This document shows, piece after piece, positions 51,592-58,363 of a DNA stretch of 64,000 bases. This DNA comes from a candidate division WS6 bacterium OLB21 (lineage in GTDB: Bacteria; Patescibacteriota; Dojkabacteria; B142; OLB20). The stretch's first letter is position 1. The number at the start of each line of letters is the position of its first letter. The translations under genes and the position numbers were made by a program. The stretch is from the NCBI GenBank assembly GCA_001567305.1, contig JYPD01000022.1, positions 1-64,000 of the forward strand, read 5' to 3'. The notes beneath the pieces are model-generated. The model was not told where the DNA came from, searched no databases, and saw nothing but the letters and a program-made list of their open reading frames with translations.

Positions 51592-53160
51592 TTAAATTAT
51601 TGATCTGAGTCTACTAATATATTTCTCTTTATCTTTTGCCACGGCATCTTTTAATAGCCAGCCTGCTTTTGGTCCGTGGTTTTTTCCGATTAATGAAATG
51701 TATATTGCTGCAAATGCTTCTTTTGTCTGTATGCCTGTTGATTTTGCGAGTTCAAAAATGGCTTGTTGAAGCTCTTCGCCTTCAGCAAAGTCTTTCGTGC
51801 TTAACATATCTGCTAGTAGACCTAAGAATCCAAGCTGGCTTTCAGAAAGTACATTTACTTGAATTGGCGTTTCTTCTGCTAAGTTAAACTTTTCGGTATC
51901 AGCAGCAAATCTCTCTAACCATAATTTTGCATAAACAACTCTTTCTTCTAATAATTCTATTTCTAGTGCACTTAAGCTAGATCCTTTTTCATTTGAGAAA
52001 TAATCCCGCAAATTGACTGATGGCATTTGGACAAGTGTAGCAACTGTCCTAAATCTTGGTAAAAAAGTAGGTTCAATTTTGTCTTTGTTTATTTGTGCAG
52101 CTTGAAAATATCTGCCTTGATCAGTTTCGGTTCCTGTTTCAAAGAAAACTTTGGCACAGCGGTCATATTCATCAAACAAATCCGGAATTGTGTTACTGAT
52201 ATTTGGGTCAAAGTTAATTGCTCGCTGATAAGGTGTTCTAACATGTAAGAATCGACCAATCTGAGGTGGAAGGATTTTTACAAACTCTGCAGCAGATGTG
52301 GCATTACCTTTTGACGAAGACATTTTTGCTCCACCGATCAAAAGAAACTCGTGTAAAAATCCGAAAGGAGGATCAGTTTTAAATACATCTTTAATTACTT
52401 CGGCGGCAATGTATCTTGATCCGCCCTTGCTGAAATGGTCTTTGCCGGCGCCTTCGATTGAAATATTCATAGCTGCCCAATGTGCAGGCCAGTCTACTTT
52501 CCACATCAACTTACCTGTTCCGCCAAAAGGAGAAATTCTTCCTTTATGCCCACAGCCCTTTGTCCATTCAACTAAGTTTTCTTCGCAGCTGTATGTAACA
52601 AGTTCACCGTCCCAATCTGTGACAAGGCTTGTTCCTACCTTCCCGCACTGAGGACATATAACTTGGAACGGATACCAGCCTTCTGGTTTCGTTTGTCCTG
52701 CAACTTTCTTGTAAATATTTCTTATTACTTCGACCTCATCGAGTGCCATGCGAATATATTTATCTATTTGTCCTTGTTTATAAAGATCAGAAGATTTGTG
52801 TATCTCTGGTTTAAACCCAAGTGTGTTAAAAGCAGAAATATATTCGTTCGCATAAAACATAGCAAAATTTTCTGCTTTACCATCAGGGGAAGGAATTGAG
52901 TTAAGAGGTTTTCCCATGTGCTGCTCGTACACAGTCTTATCTAGGTATACCGGAAGACCGTCCATAGGATCCATATCATTGATCACATATGTAAAATCAA
53001 CATTATAACCGGCATCTTTTAATGCTTCGTAGATCAGACCATGTGTAGCAATAGCTCTAAGCGATCCGGCATGTGCATGTCCGGATGGGGTTTTCATATC
53101 ATCGACTCGGTAATTATTTGATTTGTCGAAGTTCTCTAACAGTTTGTCAGCCCAGTACAT
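51592..53160 (-). CDS. lysK: Lysyl-tRNA synthetase, class I (archaeal type)
   Basis: 522 residues. Class I signatures: the HIGH counterpart PSGHAHAGSLR (residues about 25-35) and the KMSKS counterpart GAKMSSSKGN (about 284-293), with a zinc-type pair (CPQCGK and CEEN...CGHKG). This is the archaeal-type LysRS, unrelated to the usual bacterial class II enzyme. It is the third gene behind the M20 peptidase and ATP-grasp genes and shares their attenuated promoter; no separate promoter is evident in the 44-base gap upstream. Confidence 0.95.
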   Translation of the reverse strand: MYWADKLLENFDKSNNYRVDDMKTPSGHAHAGSLRAIATHGLIYEALKDAGYNVDFTYVINDMDPMDGLPVYLDKTVYEQHMGKPLNSIPSPDGKAENFAMFYANEYISAFNTLGFKPEIHKSSDLYKQGQIDKYIRMALDEVEVIRNIYKKVAGQTKPEGWYPFQVICPQCGKVGTSLVTDWDGELVTYSCEENLVEWTKGCGHKGRISPFGGTGKLMWKVDWPAHWAAMNISIEGAGKDHFSKGGSRYIAAEVIKDVFKTDPPFGFLHEFLLIGGAKMSSSKGNATSAAEFVKILPPQIGRFLHVRTPYQRAINFDPNISNTIPDLFDEYDRCAKVFFETGTETDQGRYFQAAQINKDKIEPTFLPRFRTVATLVQMPSVNLRDYFSNEKGSSLSALEIELLEERVVYAKLWLERFAADTEKFNLAEETPIQVNVLSESQLGFLGLLADMLSTKDFAEGEELQQAIFELAKSTGIQTKEAFAAIYISLIGKNHGPKAGWLLKDAVAKDKEKYISRLRSII

Positions 53161-53204: not shown

Positions 53205-54656
53205 TCAGAAATGCAGGTTGCTTATATCCGAACTGCCATATTGTAAGGCTTTATTCCATCCAGAAATTACCTCTGATCTTGAACAATTTACAAACACCAA
53301 ATCGTATCCTTCTGGACTTGTGGCGTTCGGAAGCGGAATTATCCCTTTTCCTGTTCTTTTATCAAAAAGTATCCCATCATTATTAAGTGATGTTAATAAT
53401 TTGGAAATATCTGCGTGTTTATACTTACCAAGATAGCCTACATTTGTGATGCTACTTACTTCGAATCCTGACCTCATTAACCAAGATGCGACAGATAATG
53501 TAAATGCTGCAGCAGAAATTCTAAAGTTACCGTCATAGATCAAAAGTGGAATAATTTCGTCGTCAATAATTTCGTTCATACCATCAAAAAAAACACTACC
53601 TGCGTATCCTTGGTCTGCAAAGATCCTGCCAAGGTTAACTAACCGATCTCTTCCAATTTGATCAAGAATTTCAGCTTCTTCCGAAACATCAAGATGACTC
53701 CCAACATAATATTGATCAGAGTAAAGTTGTGATGTTAGTGCAATAATACCAACTTCTCCTGATGGAATGATACTAAGACCAACTCCAAAGCTCTTTACGA
53801 CATCTTCGGATTTGGGGGTTTCTACAAACCTTTGAATTAGTACAGGAATGTTTTCTTCCTCTCTGTTTGGATTTTGAAGCTTCTCTGCATTTTGTTGCCT
53901 CAGTTCAAGTAATGATTCTAGGTAGGATTCCTCTGTCAAAATCACATTCACTTCACTTCCGGCATCAACTGCTGATTTTATGACCACTTTTCTCCAATCA
54001 ACATTGTATTGTGTGCAAAATTCTTCCCATGAATCTGGAAGATCGTTTATCCTTGCTAGTCGTGTCTCAACATGTCTAGGAATTACTGCTATATGATTCT
54101 GCACACTTTCGTAGTAGACATCTTTTCTATTTAGTCTTCTTGTAAGTTCAGCAGATTGAGTAGTGAGATCAGGATCAATACTTAGTCTGGGATATGCCTG
54201 TTTTAACAGATGCAGGTTTTCTGCCATGTATACGGGAAGTTGATTGTTAGCTAGAGGAAACAAGGAATTAAGAATTCTTAATTGCTGATACGGTGTGTAT
54301 AGCCTTTTTGTTTCATTTAGACATAACATGCCATTGCCATCCGTCACGGCATAAATCGGTCTTATCTCAGGTATCTCTAATCCCAGAAATGAAGCAAGCT
54401 CAGTTACGCGACGATTAGTATCTGAAATTCTGAGTTGAAGTTCGTAAATTTCTTCGACAGAACCTTCGTTAAGGATTGGTCTTAAGCCAATCATGCTTTG
54501 TGGTAATGCATTGCCTGTTGCATAATTTCGATTAAAACGCATATCATCGTTGCCACTTTCTAGATACAACCCGGAGTTGATATCGACCACCAAAGGTTTT
54601 ACACGCTCTCTGTATGCTGTTCCGGGAACTCTTTGTTGAAGTAAATCAGGATTCAT
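53205..54656 (-). CDS. ATP-grasp-type ligase, unknown substrate
   Basis: 483 residues, intact. An N-terminal domain of about 180 residues (pre-ATP-grasp-like) precedes an ATP-grasp core: WRKVVIKSAVDAGSEVNVIL (nucleotide-binding Lys), IPVLIQRFVET (hinge), GLSIIPSGEVGIIALTSQ, GYAGSVFFDGM and PLLIYDGNFRISAAAF, where Asp/Asn/Arg take the place of the usual E-x-N-P-R metal site. ATP-grasp enzymes join a carboxylate to an amine or thiol. The 11-base overlap with the M20 peptidase gene suggests a make-and-break pair for a peptide or N-acyl bond. No substrate can be named. Confidence 0.65.
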   Translation of the reverse strand: MNPDLLQQRVPGTAYRERVKPLVVDINSGLYLESGNDDMRFNRNYATGNALPQSMIGLRPILNEGSVEEIYELQLRISDTNRRVTELASFLGLEIPEIRPIYAVTDGNGMLCLNETKRLYTPYQQLRILNSLFPLANNQLPVYMAENLHLLKQAYPRLSIDPDLTTQSAELTRRLNRKDVYYESVQNHIAVIPRHVETRLARINDLPDSWEEFCTQYNVDWRKVVIKSAVDAGSEVNVILTEESYLESLLELRQQNAEKLQNPNREEENIPVLIQRFVETPKSEDVVKSFGVGLSIIPSGEVGIIALTSQLYSDQYYVGSHLDVSEEAEILDQIGRDRLVNLGRIFADQGYAGSVFFDGMNEIIDDEIIPLLIYDGNFRISAAAFTLSVASWLMRSGFEVSSITNVGYLGKYKHADISKLLTSLNNDGILFDKRTGKGIIPLPNATSPEGYDLVFVNCSRSEVISGWNKALQYGSSDISNLHF

Positions 54657-55725
54657 TTGTAGCCAATCTAACCATTAATCTATGCATTTCTTCAAGTTCA
54701 GTAATCTTGATGCGTTCTTCAACTGTATGCGAAAATTCTGTGCCATCTGCGAGATTCATACAAAACAGACCTTTATCATTGAAGATATTTGCATCTGAAA
54801 CTCCCCAAGGGTTGCTTTCATGAGCCTCGAGACCAATAGAAGTAATAAGCAGTCGAGTTCTTTCTACAAAATCTTTGGCTTCACTTTTAGTTAGGACATA
54901 TGCTCCATTCTCCCTTACCCAAGAAAGCTTATAATCTGCAGTTAATGCTTTGGTAGCTTTTGAGACTACATTTTCAAAGTTGATTTTATGTTTGTTTAAA
55001 GCCTCTTCGTTAAAGCTTCTGATTTCACCTGAGCATTGAATCCTTCCAAGCACAGTATTTCTAACGGAACCGCCCGTAATTAGTCCAATATTAATTACCG
55101 TCTGCTCGTTTATTCTACCCATCGGAAAATCTTGAATAATTCTAGAAAGAATAGTAAGTGCGTTTATTCCTTCCTCAGGCCTAGACGCGTGTGCATCTTT
55201 ACCCAATATCTCCAATTCAAATCTTTCGTAGGCAGGAGATGACATAACCATAGTGCCAACTGCCTGTGATGAATCAAAACAATATCCTTCTTTGGCCATT
55301 ATTAGTGACTCATCAAGAGCAAGCGCACCGTAATTTCCGGTTTCCTCTGACCTCGTAAAGATAATCTCTAGAGGTCGATTTTGAATACTTCCTTCGGTAA
55401 TTACATAAACCGTTTCGATAATCGCCGCAATTGCAGCTTTATTATCTGCTCCAAGTATTGTTTCACCTTTAGATACAAGGTACCCATCTTTAATAACTGC
55501 CATAATGTTTCTTCCCGGTTCTACCGTATCCATGTGAGCAGAAAAGAATAATGGAACGCCTGTACCCTCTATCGATGCTATGATGTTCCCGTAATCATCG
55601 ACTCGATAAGAAATGCCCACTTTCGAGATTAGCTTTTGTAAATACTGACTAATCTCATCTTCCTCACCACTTACAGAATCTATGCGAACAATGTCTTGAA
55701 AAGTTTGTATTAAGCGTTTATTCAT
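54646..55725 (-). CDS. M20 family metallopeptidase (peptidase T-like)
   Basis: 359 residues, intact. Metal ligands: FFSAHMDTVEPG (H-x-D), LGADNKAAIA, FTRSEETGNYG with the catalytic Glu-Glu, CFDSSQ, and a late His in GTEFSHTVEE. A dimerisation domain lies in the middle (GKDAHASRPEEGINAL). Resembles the PepT/M20B peptidases that trim tripeptides or dipeptides. First gene of the attenuated operon with the ATP-grasp and LysRS genes. Confidence 0.88.
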   Translation of the reverse strand: MNKRLIQTFQDIVRIDSVSGEEDEISQYLQKLISKVGISYRVDDYGNIIASIEGTGVPLFFSAHMDTVEPGRNIMAVIKDGYLVSKGETILGADNKAAIAAIIETVYVITEGSIQNRPLEIIFTRSEETGNYGALALDESLIMAKEGYCFDSSQAVGTMVMSSPAYERFELEILGKDAHASRPEEGINALTILSRIIQDFPMGRINEQTVINIGLITGGSVRNTVLGRIQCSGEIRSFNEEALNKHKINFENVVSKATKALTADYKLSWVRENGAYVLTKSEAKDFVERTRLLITSIGLEAHESNPWGVSDANIFNDKGLFCMNLADGTEFSHTVEERIKITELEEMHRLMVRLATNES

Positions 55726-55737
55726 ATTACTAAAAAT

Positions 55738-55788
55738 AAAAAAACTCCCTATTATGGGAGCAAAAAAAACAATACGGAAGTCGCCCCC
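55738..55788 (-). terminator. Attenuator: terminator hairpin with competing antiterminator
   Basis: Read on the minus strand, CTCCC-ATAATA-GGGAG (55760-55745) followed by T7 forms a terminator 20 bases before the M20 start. The upstream GGGGGCGA (55788-55781) can pair with TTGCTCCC (55763-55756) over eight positions with two G-T wobbles and would remove the terminator 5' arm. GGGGGC begins at the first base after the leader peptide stop codon, so a ribosome at that stop would cover it. This is the geometry of transcription attenuation by leader translation. Confidence 0.65.
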
Positions 55789-55836
55789 TTAGATAGAGAG
55801 TTTCTTAGCCTTATTGTTAAAGTAATTTAGATTCAT
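55789..55836 (-). CDS. Leader peptide of the M20/ATP-grasp/lysyl-tRNA synthetase operon
   Basis: A 15-codon frame, MNLNYFNNKAKKLSI then TAA. It begins about three bases after the predicted transcription start and ends directly against the GGGGGC antiterminator segment. Three Lys codons (AAG, AAG, AAA) sit five to eight codons before the stop, where a stalled ribosome would leave the GGGGGC free. Lys would fit the downstream LysRS, but four Asn codons are also present and the genome is AT-rich, so the sensed amino acid is inference. Confidence 0.55.
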   Translation of the reverse strand: MNLNYFNNKAKKLSI

Positions 55837-55845
55837 GACTTGAGG

Positions 55846-55874
55846 ATTATTGCTGATTTATAATAAATTGTCAA
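55846..55874 (-). promoter_or_regulatory. Promoter of the leader peptide / M20 operon
   Basis: Minus strand: perfect -35 TTGACA (55874-55869), 17-base spacer, -10 AATAAT (55851-55846). The predicted start near 55839 leaves almost no untranslated sequence before the leader peptide ATG. Confidence 0.65.
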
Positions 55875-55878
55875 CAGT

Positions 55879-55914: not shown

Positions 55915-56682
55915 ATGAAAGCAGTCATTTTAAGTCAAAACGATCCATTCTATACAAAATTCTTTTTTAAGGAATATATTAAAAGATATAGCGAGTCACC
56001 ATTTGAGTTACAAGCTGTATATCTGCTCGACCCCATGAAGGATTCATTGTTTGGACTACTTAAACGAACACTATCTTTCTATGGACCATTTGATTTCCTT
56101 AGAATGGGTATCAAATATGTTTTCGCAAAAATCCAAGAAAAAATTGGAGTAGGGGATTCACCGTTAACTCAACTTCAGAGACTTGGCATAACAGTTGAAA
56201 AAGTTAAAAATGTTAACGACAAAGCATTTGTTGATGTTATTCGATCGTATAAGACTGATTTTTTAATCTCAGTTTCCTGCCCACAGATATTTTCGAGAGA
56301 CCTCTTAAGTACAGCAAAGATAGCACCAATCAATATCCATTCAGGGAAAATCCCTTTGTACAGAGGTTTCTTTCCAAACTTCTGGCAAATGCTTAATGGA
56401 GAAAAATTTGCAACCGTGACTATCCATAAAATGGAGCCAAAAGTTGATAAGGGAAATATCATTCTAGAAATGCCTATTGAGATAAAACCGAACATGACGC
56501 TACAAGAACTAATCAAACAAACCAAAGAAGTTGCAGTAGAAGGAGTATTTGAAGTCGTCAAAAGATATAAGCAGAAGAAAATTATATTGTTCGAAAATGA
56601 AGATTTAAAAGATACTTATTATGGCTTTCCTTCCAGAAAAGATGTCCTTTTGTTCAAACAGAAAGGTTTAAAAATACTATGA
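55915..56682 (+). CDS. Formyltransferase family protein
   Basis: 255 residues. The active-site block NIHSGKIPLYRGFFPNFW carries the Asn, His and following R-G of formyltetrahydrofolate-dependent transferases, and DFLISVSCPQIF precedes it as usual. It resembles sugar-modifying formyltransferases (ArnA N-terminal and related) more than methionyl-tRNA formyltransferase, as the C-terminal tRNA-binding domain is missing. It is coupled by ATGA overlap to the polysaccharide deacetylase, which supports a role in surface sugar modification. Confidence 0.8.
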   Translation: MKAVILSQNDPFYTKFFFKEYIKRYSESPFELQAVYLLDPMKDSLFGLLKRTLSFYGPFDFLRMGIKYVFAKIQEKIGVGDSPLTQLQRLGITVEKVKNVNDKAFVDVIRSYKTDFLISVSCPQIFSRDLLSTAKIAPINIHSGKIPLYRGFFPNFWQMLNGEKFATVTIHKMEPKVDKGNIILEMPIEIKPNMTLQELIKQTKEVAVEGVFEVVKRYKQKKIILFENEDLKDTYYGFPSRKDVLLFKQKGLKIL

Positions 56683-57546
56683 GCAAAAGTATTATCCTTA
56701 CCTTTGATGTTGAAGAATGGTTTCATACAACCTTTATGTATGAATATCTTACTAGTAGAGACATAGCTCAAAGTAGAATTTATGAGAGCTTGCAGACTTG
56801 CCTAGATCTTCTGAATGAACACGACATTGCTGCTACTTTTTTTTGTTCTAGCAGAACTTGCCGAAAAGAATCCGAAAATAATAAACATGATTACAGATGC
56901 CAATCTTCGGCACGAGATTGCATCACATTCATATAGCCACGATTTGCTCTATGAGAAAAAGGATTCACAGATTAAAAAGAATATTTATAATTCAAAAAAG
57001 ATATTAGAGGATTTAAGCGGTAAGTCTGTAAAAGGATTTCGTGCGCCATATTTTTCGATTAATGACCATGCTATCGAGTGTTTAGTTAATGCAGGATATA
57101 AATACGATTCCAGCCTTCATGATTTTAGATTGAACGGCCAATATGGAACTTTAACTCTGCCAATGAAGGCAACGGATTCACCAGGAATATTTACCTATAA
57201 AACTCTCACCGAAGTTACAATTCCGGTTAAAAGGTATTTTAATCTTTTAACGCTGCCATTCGGAGGCGGAGGATATTATAGATTGTATCCACTTGTTCTG
57301 CAGGAGTATTGGATAAGATCATTCTTAAAAACAAGCGACTATTTTATGATGTATCTTCATCCTTGGGAATTTGATTCAAATCAGCCTTACATCACAAAGG
57401 CTCCTTTCCTTAAAAGATTTCGTCATTATGTCGGCATTAAAAGTCATAAACAAAAAACTGACAGTCTTATTCGCAATCTTAAATCATCAAACTTTAAGTT
57501 CAAAACGCTCTCAGAGTATTTATCAAACAAGAAATTGACAAAATAG
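56679..57546 (+). CDS. Polysaccharide deacetylase with DUF3473 (frameshifted)
   Basis: About 289 residues. NodB motif 1 LTFDVEEWFH, then IAATFFVLAELAEK once one base is removed from the T8 run 56837-56844, motif 2 HEIASHSYSHDLL, motif 3 KGFRAPYFSI, and a DUF3473 tail with LPFGGGGYYRLYP and MMYLHPWEFD. DUF3473 members act in exopolysaccharide and capsule pathways. Metal-dependent removal of N-acetyl groups is expected. No signal peptide, so it probably works on a lipid-linked or nucleotide-linked sugar inside the cell. Confidence 0.88.
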
Positions 57547-57556
57547 TATAACTAAT

Positions 57557-57562
57557 TATAAT
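57557..57562 (+). promoter_or_regulatory. -10 element for the Cys leader peptide / PIG-L gene
   Basis: A perfect TATAAT whose expected start point (about 57569) coincides with the A of the leader peptide ATG. The -35 region lies in the end of the deacetylase gene and is not clear. Confidence 0.55.
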
Positions 57563-57568
57563 TTGAGC

Positions 57569-57610
57569 ATGAATTATTTAAATAGGTCACAAAGTTGTTG
57601 TTGTAAATAG
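57569..57610 (+). CDS. Leader peptide with three consecutive Cys codons
   Basis: A 13-codon frame MNYLNRSQSCCCK followed by TAG, starting at the predicted transcription start point. Codons 10-12 are TGT TGT TGT. Cys is rare in this AT-rich coding sequence, so a triple run in a tiny frame is unlikely by chance. The frame ends 36 bases before the PIG-L start and its codons lie in the 5' arms of two nested inverted repeats. Best read as a cysteine-sensing leader peptide controlling the PIG-L gene; expression is not shown by sequence. Confidence 0.6.
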   Translation: MNYLNRSQSCCCK

Positions 57611-57642
57611 ATTTATTTCTATTTTACGACTCTACCTATTTA
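57579..57642 (+). repeat. Nested inverted repeats in the PIG-L leader
   Basis: Outer stem: TAAATAGGT (57579-57587) with ACCTATTTA (57634-57642), nine perfect pairs ending four bases before the PIG-L ATG. Inner stem: GTAAATAGA (57603-57611) with TCTATTTTAC (57618-57627), one bulge. The leader peptide covers the 5' arm of the outer stem and most of that of the inner stem. Confidence 0.65.
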
Positions 57643-57646
57643 TTTA

Positions 57647-58363
57647 ATGAAAACTCAATATCTTCCAGACTTCAAATTTCCAAAAACTGTAAAATCAATA
57701 CTCGTTTTCGTTGCTCATCCGGACGATGAAAGCGCCTTTACCTCAGGTTTAATTAATAAAGCAATACGAGAAAAATTAGATGTAAGAGTGATTGTCATGA
57801 GCAAAGGTGAAAACAGTACAAATAGATATAGACTAGATCCAAATATGGATCTAGCTTCGACTCGTGAATATGAGCTAATTAATGCATTGCAAAAGCTGGG
57901 AGTTAGTAACTATTCAATTGAAAATCTTCCCGATGGTGGACTTTCAAATTATACAGAAGAAATGCTGAAAATAATCGATTTCGAGAGAAATCAGAAAGCA
58001 ACACAACTTTTTGTTACTCTCGAACCTTCAGGGATCTATGGGCATCCTGATCATATCGCTCTGACTCAAACCGTAACGCAATACACAGATATATATAATC
58101 TACCCTTAATTTTTGCAACTATAAAACAGCAAATTATGCCAGCTCAAGATATGCTATCCATGGGTATTGATCCTGAATTAATCTCTCCTCTAGAACCATC
58201 ACATAAAATTTCTTTAAACTTGGAAGCTCGCATAAGAAAATATTTAGCACTAAGAGCTCATCGCAGCCAATTTGAACATTCTTTGAAATGGACTTATGAT
58301 TGGTACAAGAAAGGACTATTTTCTGAAGAATACTATACATTAAACTACGATTATGAAATCTGA
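57647..58363 (+). CDS. PIG-L family N-acetylglucosaminyl deacetylase
   Basis: 238 residues. Zinc motif VFVAHPDDESAFTSG and the later His pair GHPDHIAL identify the PIG-L/LmbE fold. Relatives include MshB and BshB, which deacetylate GlcNAc conjugates in mycothiol and bacillithiol synthesis, as well as GlcNAc-PI and antibiotic enzymes. The Cys-rich leader peptide in front makes a thiol-linked role attractive, but no bshA, bshC or mshC is in the window. Overlaps the next small gene by 11 bases. Confidence 0.88.
   Translation: MKTQYLPDFKFPKTVKSILVFVAHPDDESAFTSGLINKAIREKLDVRVIVMSKGENSTNRYRLDPNMDLASTREYELINALQKLGVSNYSIENLPDGGLSNYTEEMLKIIDFERNQKATQLFVTLEPSGIYGHPDHIALTQTVTQYTDIYNLPLIFATIKQQIMPAQDMLSMGIDPELISPLEPSHKISLNLEARIRKYLALRAHRSQFEHSLKWTYDWYKKGLFSEEYYTLNYDYEI

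Follow-up and report, generated by a model that had tools for sequence, protein, structure and literature searches.

Predicted leader-peptide attenuation of the only lysyl-tRNA synthetase gene, of class I or class II, in three genera of Dojkabacteria

A short element on the minus strand of a Dojkabacteria (WS6) contig is very probably a ribosome-mediated transcription attenuator, which would sense the charging of tRNA(Lys) and control the only lysyl-tRNA synthetase (LysRS) of the cell. The stretch of DNA under study, here called the window, comprises 64,000 nucleotides from candidate division WS6 bacterium OLB21 (genome G000), and the element is found in it between a formyltransferase gene and an M20 peptidase gene, with all the parts that an earlier reading of the letters by themselves had described (Table 1). 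These are a promoter, a leader of 15 codons, a G-run touching the leader stop codon and a CTCCC/GGGAG terminator with T7 (a count that includes the last T of the stem), all on the minus strand and ahead of the operon. The promoter, TTGACA-17-AATAAT, matches the consensus at 11 of 12 positions. Both the CTCCC/GGGAG stem with its T run and the order of promoter, short leader ORF, intrinsic terminator and structural genes are shared with two relatives, OLB20 and G003, and since in each of the three genomes the gene upstream is transcribed divergently, the terminator is to be regarded as an element of the 5'-UTR and not as that of an upstream gene.

Table 1. Positions of the leader element and of the neighbouring genes in the window, and of T-box leaders in other Dojkabacteria (locus:positions)
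Feature	Position	Strand	Remark
Divergent formyltransferase gene	55915-56682	+	upstream neighbour of leader element
-35 TTGACA	55869..55874	-	same TTGACA in OLB20; TTGTTA in G003
-10 AATAAT	55846..55851	-	17-nt spacer from -35; ATG 9 nt downstream
Leader ORF MNLNYFNNKAKKLSI, 15 codons + TAA	55789..55836	-	ATG at 55836
Lys-Ala-Lys codons AAG GCT AAG, proposed stall site	55804..55812	-	kept in 3/3 members; ribosome-position folding
Segment 1 AAACTCTCTAT, last leader codons	55793..55803	-	partner is segment 2 or segment 4
Segment 2 GGGGGCGA, 5' half of antiterminator	55781..55788	-	abuts leader stop codon
Segment 3 TTGCTCCC	55756..55763	-	antiterminator 3' half and terminator 5' arm
Segment 4 ATAGGGAGTTT, terminator 3' arm	55742..55752	-	alternative partner is segment 1
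Intrinsic terminator GCTCCC-ATAATA-GGGAGT (55761-55744) + T7 (55744-55738)	55738..55761	-	
M20 peptidase (PepT-like), first operon gene	54646..55725	-	ATG at 55725
483-aa protein, no assigned family, middle operon gene	53205..54656	-	"ATP-grasp" of the sequence-only reading
Class I lysyl-tRNA synthetase, third operon gene	51592..53160	-	only LysRS found in the window genome (G000)
T-box leaders upstream of class II LysRS	L068:5292-5545, L042:1188-1404, L045:1198-1409		Rfam

Among the genomes compared, candidate division WS6 bacterium OLB20, of the same family, is the nearest relative in which the operon occurs; its M20 and middle proteins are 52% and 38% identical to those of the window. A scan of 86 genomes of the class places the element in three genera of this one family (the window genome, OLB20 and G003), and each of the three members heads an operon with the only LysRS detected in its genome. 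In OLB20 the element reads TTGACA-17-GATAAT-6-GTG, with the leader MDITGLFNNKAKCSFS, GAGGCGGGC at the stop codon and the terminator TGCTCCC-GCAA-GGGAG-T6; that of G003 reads TTGTTA-17-TAAAAT-6-ATG, with the leader MVTTFTKKAKSKKLF, GAAGGGGG after the stop codon and the terminator TCTCCC-TCTT-GGGAGA-TTTTT, and it directly precedes a class I LysRS gene, the M20 and middle genes being absent there. When the 86 genomes were screened for a terminator with KAK codons at the right distance, four matched, three of these heading LysRS operons, and the fourth was rejected as an unrelated chance match. Among 380 genomes of the phylum, the pattern of motif plus terminator matched in 26 further genomes, mostly in coding sequence or by chance, and tblastn found no LysRS encoded at any of the fetched pattern loci (18 phylum matches and G039). 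The coding form of FNNKAK occurs once in the window genome and once in OLB20 among 39 genomes, on both occasions at this locus, so that no further regulon emerged from that set. The other three genomes of the family lack the element and have a class II LysRS, and the terminators upstream of LysRS at 36 loci of the class are, besides that of G003, mainly of the T-box type.

The leader peptides of all three members share the motif F-x-x-K-A-K. Aligned without gaps from the stop codon, the window and OLB20 leaders have six consecutive residues in common, F-N-N-K-A-K (shuffle P about 5e-6), and G003 carries F-T-K-K-A-K; in a shuffled G003 leader F-x-x-K-A-K arises with a chance of 0.015 and KAK alone with one of 0.11. 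Across the F, K, A and K codons of the three members the third position varies in four out of four, and none of the eight first and second positions does, a count that was read directly from the sequences and is somewhat inflated by the picking of the aligned motif. A hairpin kept in relatives that had lost the leader frame, which had been named beforehand as evidence against attenuation, was looked for and the opposite was found, as two other genera keep the hairpin together with an F-x-x-K-A-K leader. The sequence-only reading had left the signal as either lysine or asparagine. The Lys codons are kept in three of three leaders, each with a LysRS downstream, and sensing of asparagine was rejected because N-N is replaced by T-K in G003; lysine is thus the likely signal. 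The conserved motif also includes residues other than lysine (F and A, and N-N in two of the three members), and this would favour nascent-peptide arrest, in which F-N-N-K-A-K is an arrest sequence that answers a small molecule or free lysine and not starvation for a codon. We regard such an arrest as unlikely, given the divergent motif of G003 and a peptide of only 8-11 residues at the stall site, which is short for engagement with the exit tunnel, and given that the Lys codons directly explain the linkage to LysRS.

The competition between two folds proposed for the window can be followed in the computed energies. The free window RNA folds as one long antiterminator at -26.4 kcal/mol, against -22.1 kcal/mol for the best fold that contains the terminator; the 99-nt form folds at -26.7 kcal/mol with z = -3.5, more stably than chance would give. 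The pairing of GGGGGCGA with TTGCTCCC on which this proposal was founded is present and yet incomplete, as CTCTCT, the closing codons of the leader, forms further pairs with the 3' arm of the terminator. The antiterminator as default of the free RNA is not conserved: the free RNAs of OLB20 and G003 prefer the terminator, and in them segments 1 and 2 form a hairpin whose loop contains the stop codon. As to covariation of the segments, which concerns three sequences only, OLB20 pairs GCGGG with CCCGC in a shifted register.

We then analyzed the folding as a function of ribosome position: the ribosome was set on one codon after another, with that codon in its A site, the RNA that it covers was removed, and the probability of the terminator was computed. 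With the ribosome at the stop codon this probability is 0.98-1.00 in all three members for 9 protected nucleotides, and at least 0.71 when 5-14 nt are protected; when the A site holds the first Lys codon of KAK, again for 9 protected nucleotides, it amounts to 0.00 in the window genome, 0.12 in OLB20 and 0.03 in G003. The stalls that give a low terminator probability span exactly K10-A11-K12 in OLB20 and T6 to S11 in G003, and in both RNAs stalls farther upstream bring the terminator back. In the window genome every stall at or before K9 results in antitermination and the terminator becomes possible once the ribosome has reached K11 or K12; lysine specificity is thus weaker there, as any stall upstream of K9 also antiterminates. 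For OLB20 and G003 the two folds are separated at the first Lys by a minimum-energy margin of about 1 kcal/mol, which is within the error of the model. By computation, then, antiterminator and terminator are mutually exclusive and are chosen by the position of the ribosome in three of three members.

Shuffling the stretch from KAK to the terminator reproduces the switch, defined as termination at the stop codon together with a mean antiterminator probability at KAK that equals or exceeds the observed one, in 18 of 400 cases for the window, 8 of 400 for OLB20 and 0 of 400 for G003. The figure of 18/400 for the window alone, and the fact that AT-rich sequence is full of short ORFs in which Lys codons are frequent, would suit a constitutive weak terminator next to a spurious short ORF, with no regulation at all. 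We consider this most improbable, since three genera show the element only at LysRS, with FxxKAK kept and with a folding that is tuned to codon position. The original reading as leader-peptide attenuation is supported in that the Lys codons occupy positions at which ribosome stalling shifts the fold towards antitermination and, though it is built on three members and AT-rich leaders often contain lysine, we hold it to be correct with high probability.

An RNA that answers a protein or a ligand, such as LysRS itself or a T-box-like contact with tRNA, with the ORF being incidental, has in its favour that the window antiterminator forms without a ribosome and that LysRS stands under T-boxes in three other Dojkabacteria (G008, G054 and G059). 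Neither the T-box covariance model (RF00230) nor the core GGTGGTACC found a match in the window, G003 or OLB20, and no Rfam model reached its threshold for the present element, the best being the PyrG leader with E = 0.68. In addition, the RNA has only about 100 nt and lacks a T-box core, its leader frame is kept through synonymous substitutions, and the terminator is the default in OLB20 and G003, all of which makes such a protein- or ligand-binding RNA very unlikely. The three T-boxes match RF00230 with E of 2.5e-5, 1.6e-11 and 3.3e-15, in no case reaching the gathering score, and each lies upstream of a LysRS that is the only one found in its genome. In a survey of 891 genomes, T-box-controlled LysRS was found in 4 species, always beside a second LysRS, for a reason that was left open; the cases include the class I lysK of Bacillus cereus, and a single T-box type occurred with LysRS genes of either class (PMC2916919). 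The single LysRS of each of the three T-box Dojkabacteria is thus at variance with the published rule of a second copy.

With respect to the mechanism and ALTERNATIVES, the anatomy fits classical attenuation. The start codon of the leader follows the -10 hexamer by 9 nt in the window and by 6 nt in both OLB20 and G003, and the transcript is therefore expected to begin on the start codon or no more than about 3 nt away from it, so that the leader ORF is predicted from its sequence to be leaderless or nearly so. Of 50 window ORFs of at least 120 aa only one is preceded by an SD-like motif, and at related loci the same holds for 6 of 114 first-gene ORFs, a scarcity which indicates that initiation with no ribosome site upstream is normal here. 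The ribosome would then initiate at the leader start without a Shine-Dalgarno sequence. When Lys-tRNA is plentiful, it would reach the stop codon and cover segments 1 and 2, leaving segments 3 and 4 to form the terminator, and transcription would end before the operon. When Lys-tRNA is scarce, the ribosome would stall at KAK and leave segment 2 free to pair with segment 3, while segment 1, where exposed, would pair with segment 4; with the terminator blocked in this way, LysRS and its companion genes would be transcribed. Given that the free RNA of the window genome defaults to the antiterminator, poor initiation would raise expression in this genome, unlike in OLB20 and G003.

The operon behind the element varies in composition. 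The window LysRS belongs to class I (TIGR00467 at 327.9 bits, cut-off 147.55; PF01921, 287.5 bits), and no match for a class II LysRS was found in the window genome. Across the class, 6 of the 86 genomes have a class I LysRS and 75 a class II enzyme; the window genome and G003 have class I only, and in OLB20 the third position of the same operon is taken by a class II gene, the only type in that genome. The same element and operon position therefore go with two unrelated enzymes for one reaction. Of the claim that a class I LysRS is regulated, the LysRS part stands, as a LysRS operon is headed in three of three cases, but class I is not a constant of the system: what is constant is the LysRS function. 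The class II gene of OLB20 (L022:7517-9511), the sole copy, has its reading frame broken twice in the assembly; as the gene is the only LysRS of the genome, the breaks are probably sequencing error, with assembly error or decay as the other options. Seven genomes of the class have M20, and in five of them it is linked to LysRS, a linkage which may fit a role in lysine supply. Three other Dojkabacteria (G024, G034 and G045; loci L061, L062 and L078) combine M20 with a class II LysRS without the leader element. The middle gene is present in only 2 of the 86 genomes, and a scan of contigs with it as query gave OLB20 as the only match. Its earlier label of ATP-grasp found no support: neither Pfam nor NCBIfam assigns a family, the hint of PGM1_C has an E of 0.12 and concerns one of the two members only, a PDB profile search gave no usable match, and the AF2 model has a pLDDT of 45.

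Ribosome-mediated amino-acid attenuators are known from the trp, his and pheST type, pheST being that of E. coli. The lysine leader resembles them in having a short ORF with cognate codons, alternative antiterminator and terminator structures and synthetase or amino-acid genes downstream, and it differs in its lysine codons and LysRS, in the predicted leaderless ORF within an SD-poor lineage, in a segment 1 that also pairs with the 3' arm of the terminator, and in preceding non-homologous synthetases. Leader-peptide attenuators before synthetase genes are also represented by trpS and leuS in Streptomyces (PMC1262725). With T-box control of LysRS it would have in common the sensing of tRNA-Lys charging and antitermination of a LysRS gene, and the element, as the one T-box type, goes with class I or class II genes; it lacks the T-box structure and core, its sensor would be the translating ribosome, and the LysRS that it would control is the sole one, whereas T-box LysRS genes have been reported only beside a second copy. 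Known short upstream ORFs with a codon run near the stop share such a run with the lysine leader but have no obvious terminators, unlike the clear intrinsic terminator seen here; they come closer to a second leader of the window, before a PIG-L gene. The novelty claimed for attenuation of LysRS by a leader peptide agrees with the open-access literature, in which we found no report of leader-peptide control of LysRS; nor did the open-access literature searched contain a description of leader-peptide attenuators in the candidate phyla radiation. The type of mechanism is known, and its leaderless, class-swapping version with lysine and LysRS appears to be new.

The second leaderless leader candidate lies at 57535-57647 on the plus strand of the window (TTGACA-16-TATAAT-6-ATG, MNYLNRSQSCCCK, with three Cys codons), shortly before a gene for a PIG-L deacetylase (57647-58363). 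OLB20 has MNAVSIHTTCCS at the matching place before PIG-L, and in both genomes an AAATAG/CTATTT hairpin is found at or just after the stop codon; the conservation of this second leader also speaks for the attenuator reading of the first. Possibly this is a cysteine-sensing control of a gene of a thiol pathway. Whether leaderless leader peptides are a general form of amino-acid control in the SD-poor Dojkabacteria, with Lys leaders before LysRS of either class and Cys-run leaders before PIG-L, is in our judgement an evenly balanced matter.

Lysine-sensing control of LysRS is rare, and here the sole LysRS is apparently under a leader peptide. A regulator that is kept while the enzyme swaps between two unrelated protein classes suggests that the conserved unit is the regulation and not the enzyme, and with this element attenuation on a leaderless ORF can be put to the test within the candidate phyla radiation. 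If the general form of control holds, Cys-run leaders would control a PIG-L deacetylase of presumed thiol metabolism, and, with 5' UTRs lacking, the first ribosome on the transcript would itself be the sensor in SD-poor Dojkabacteria.
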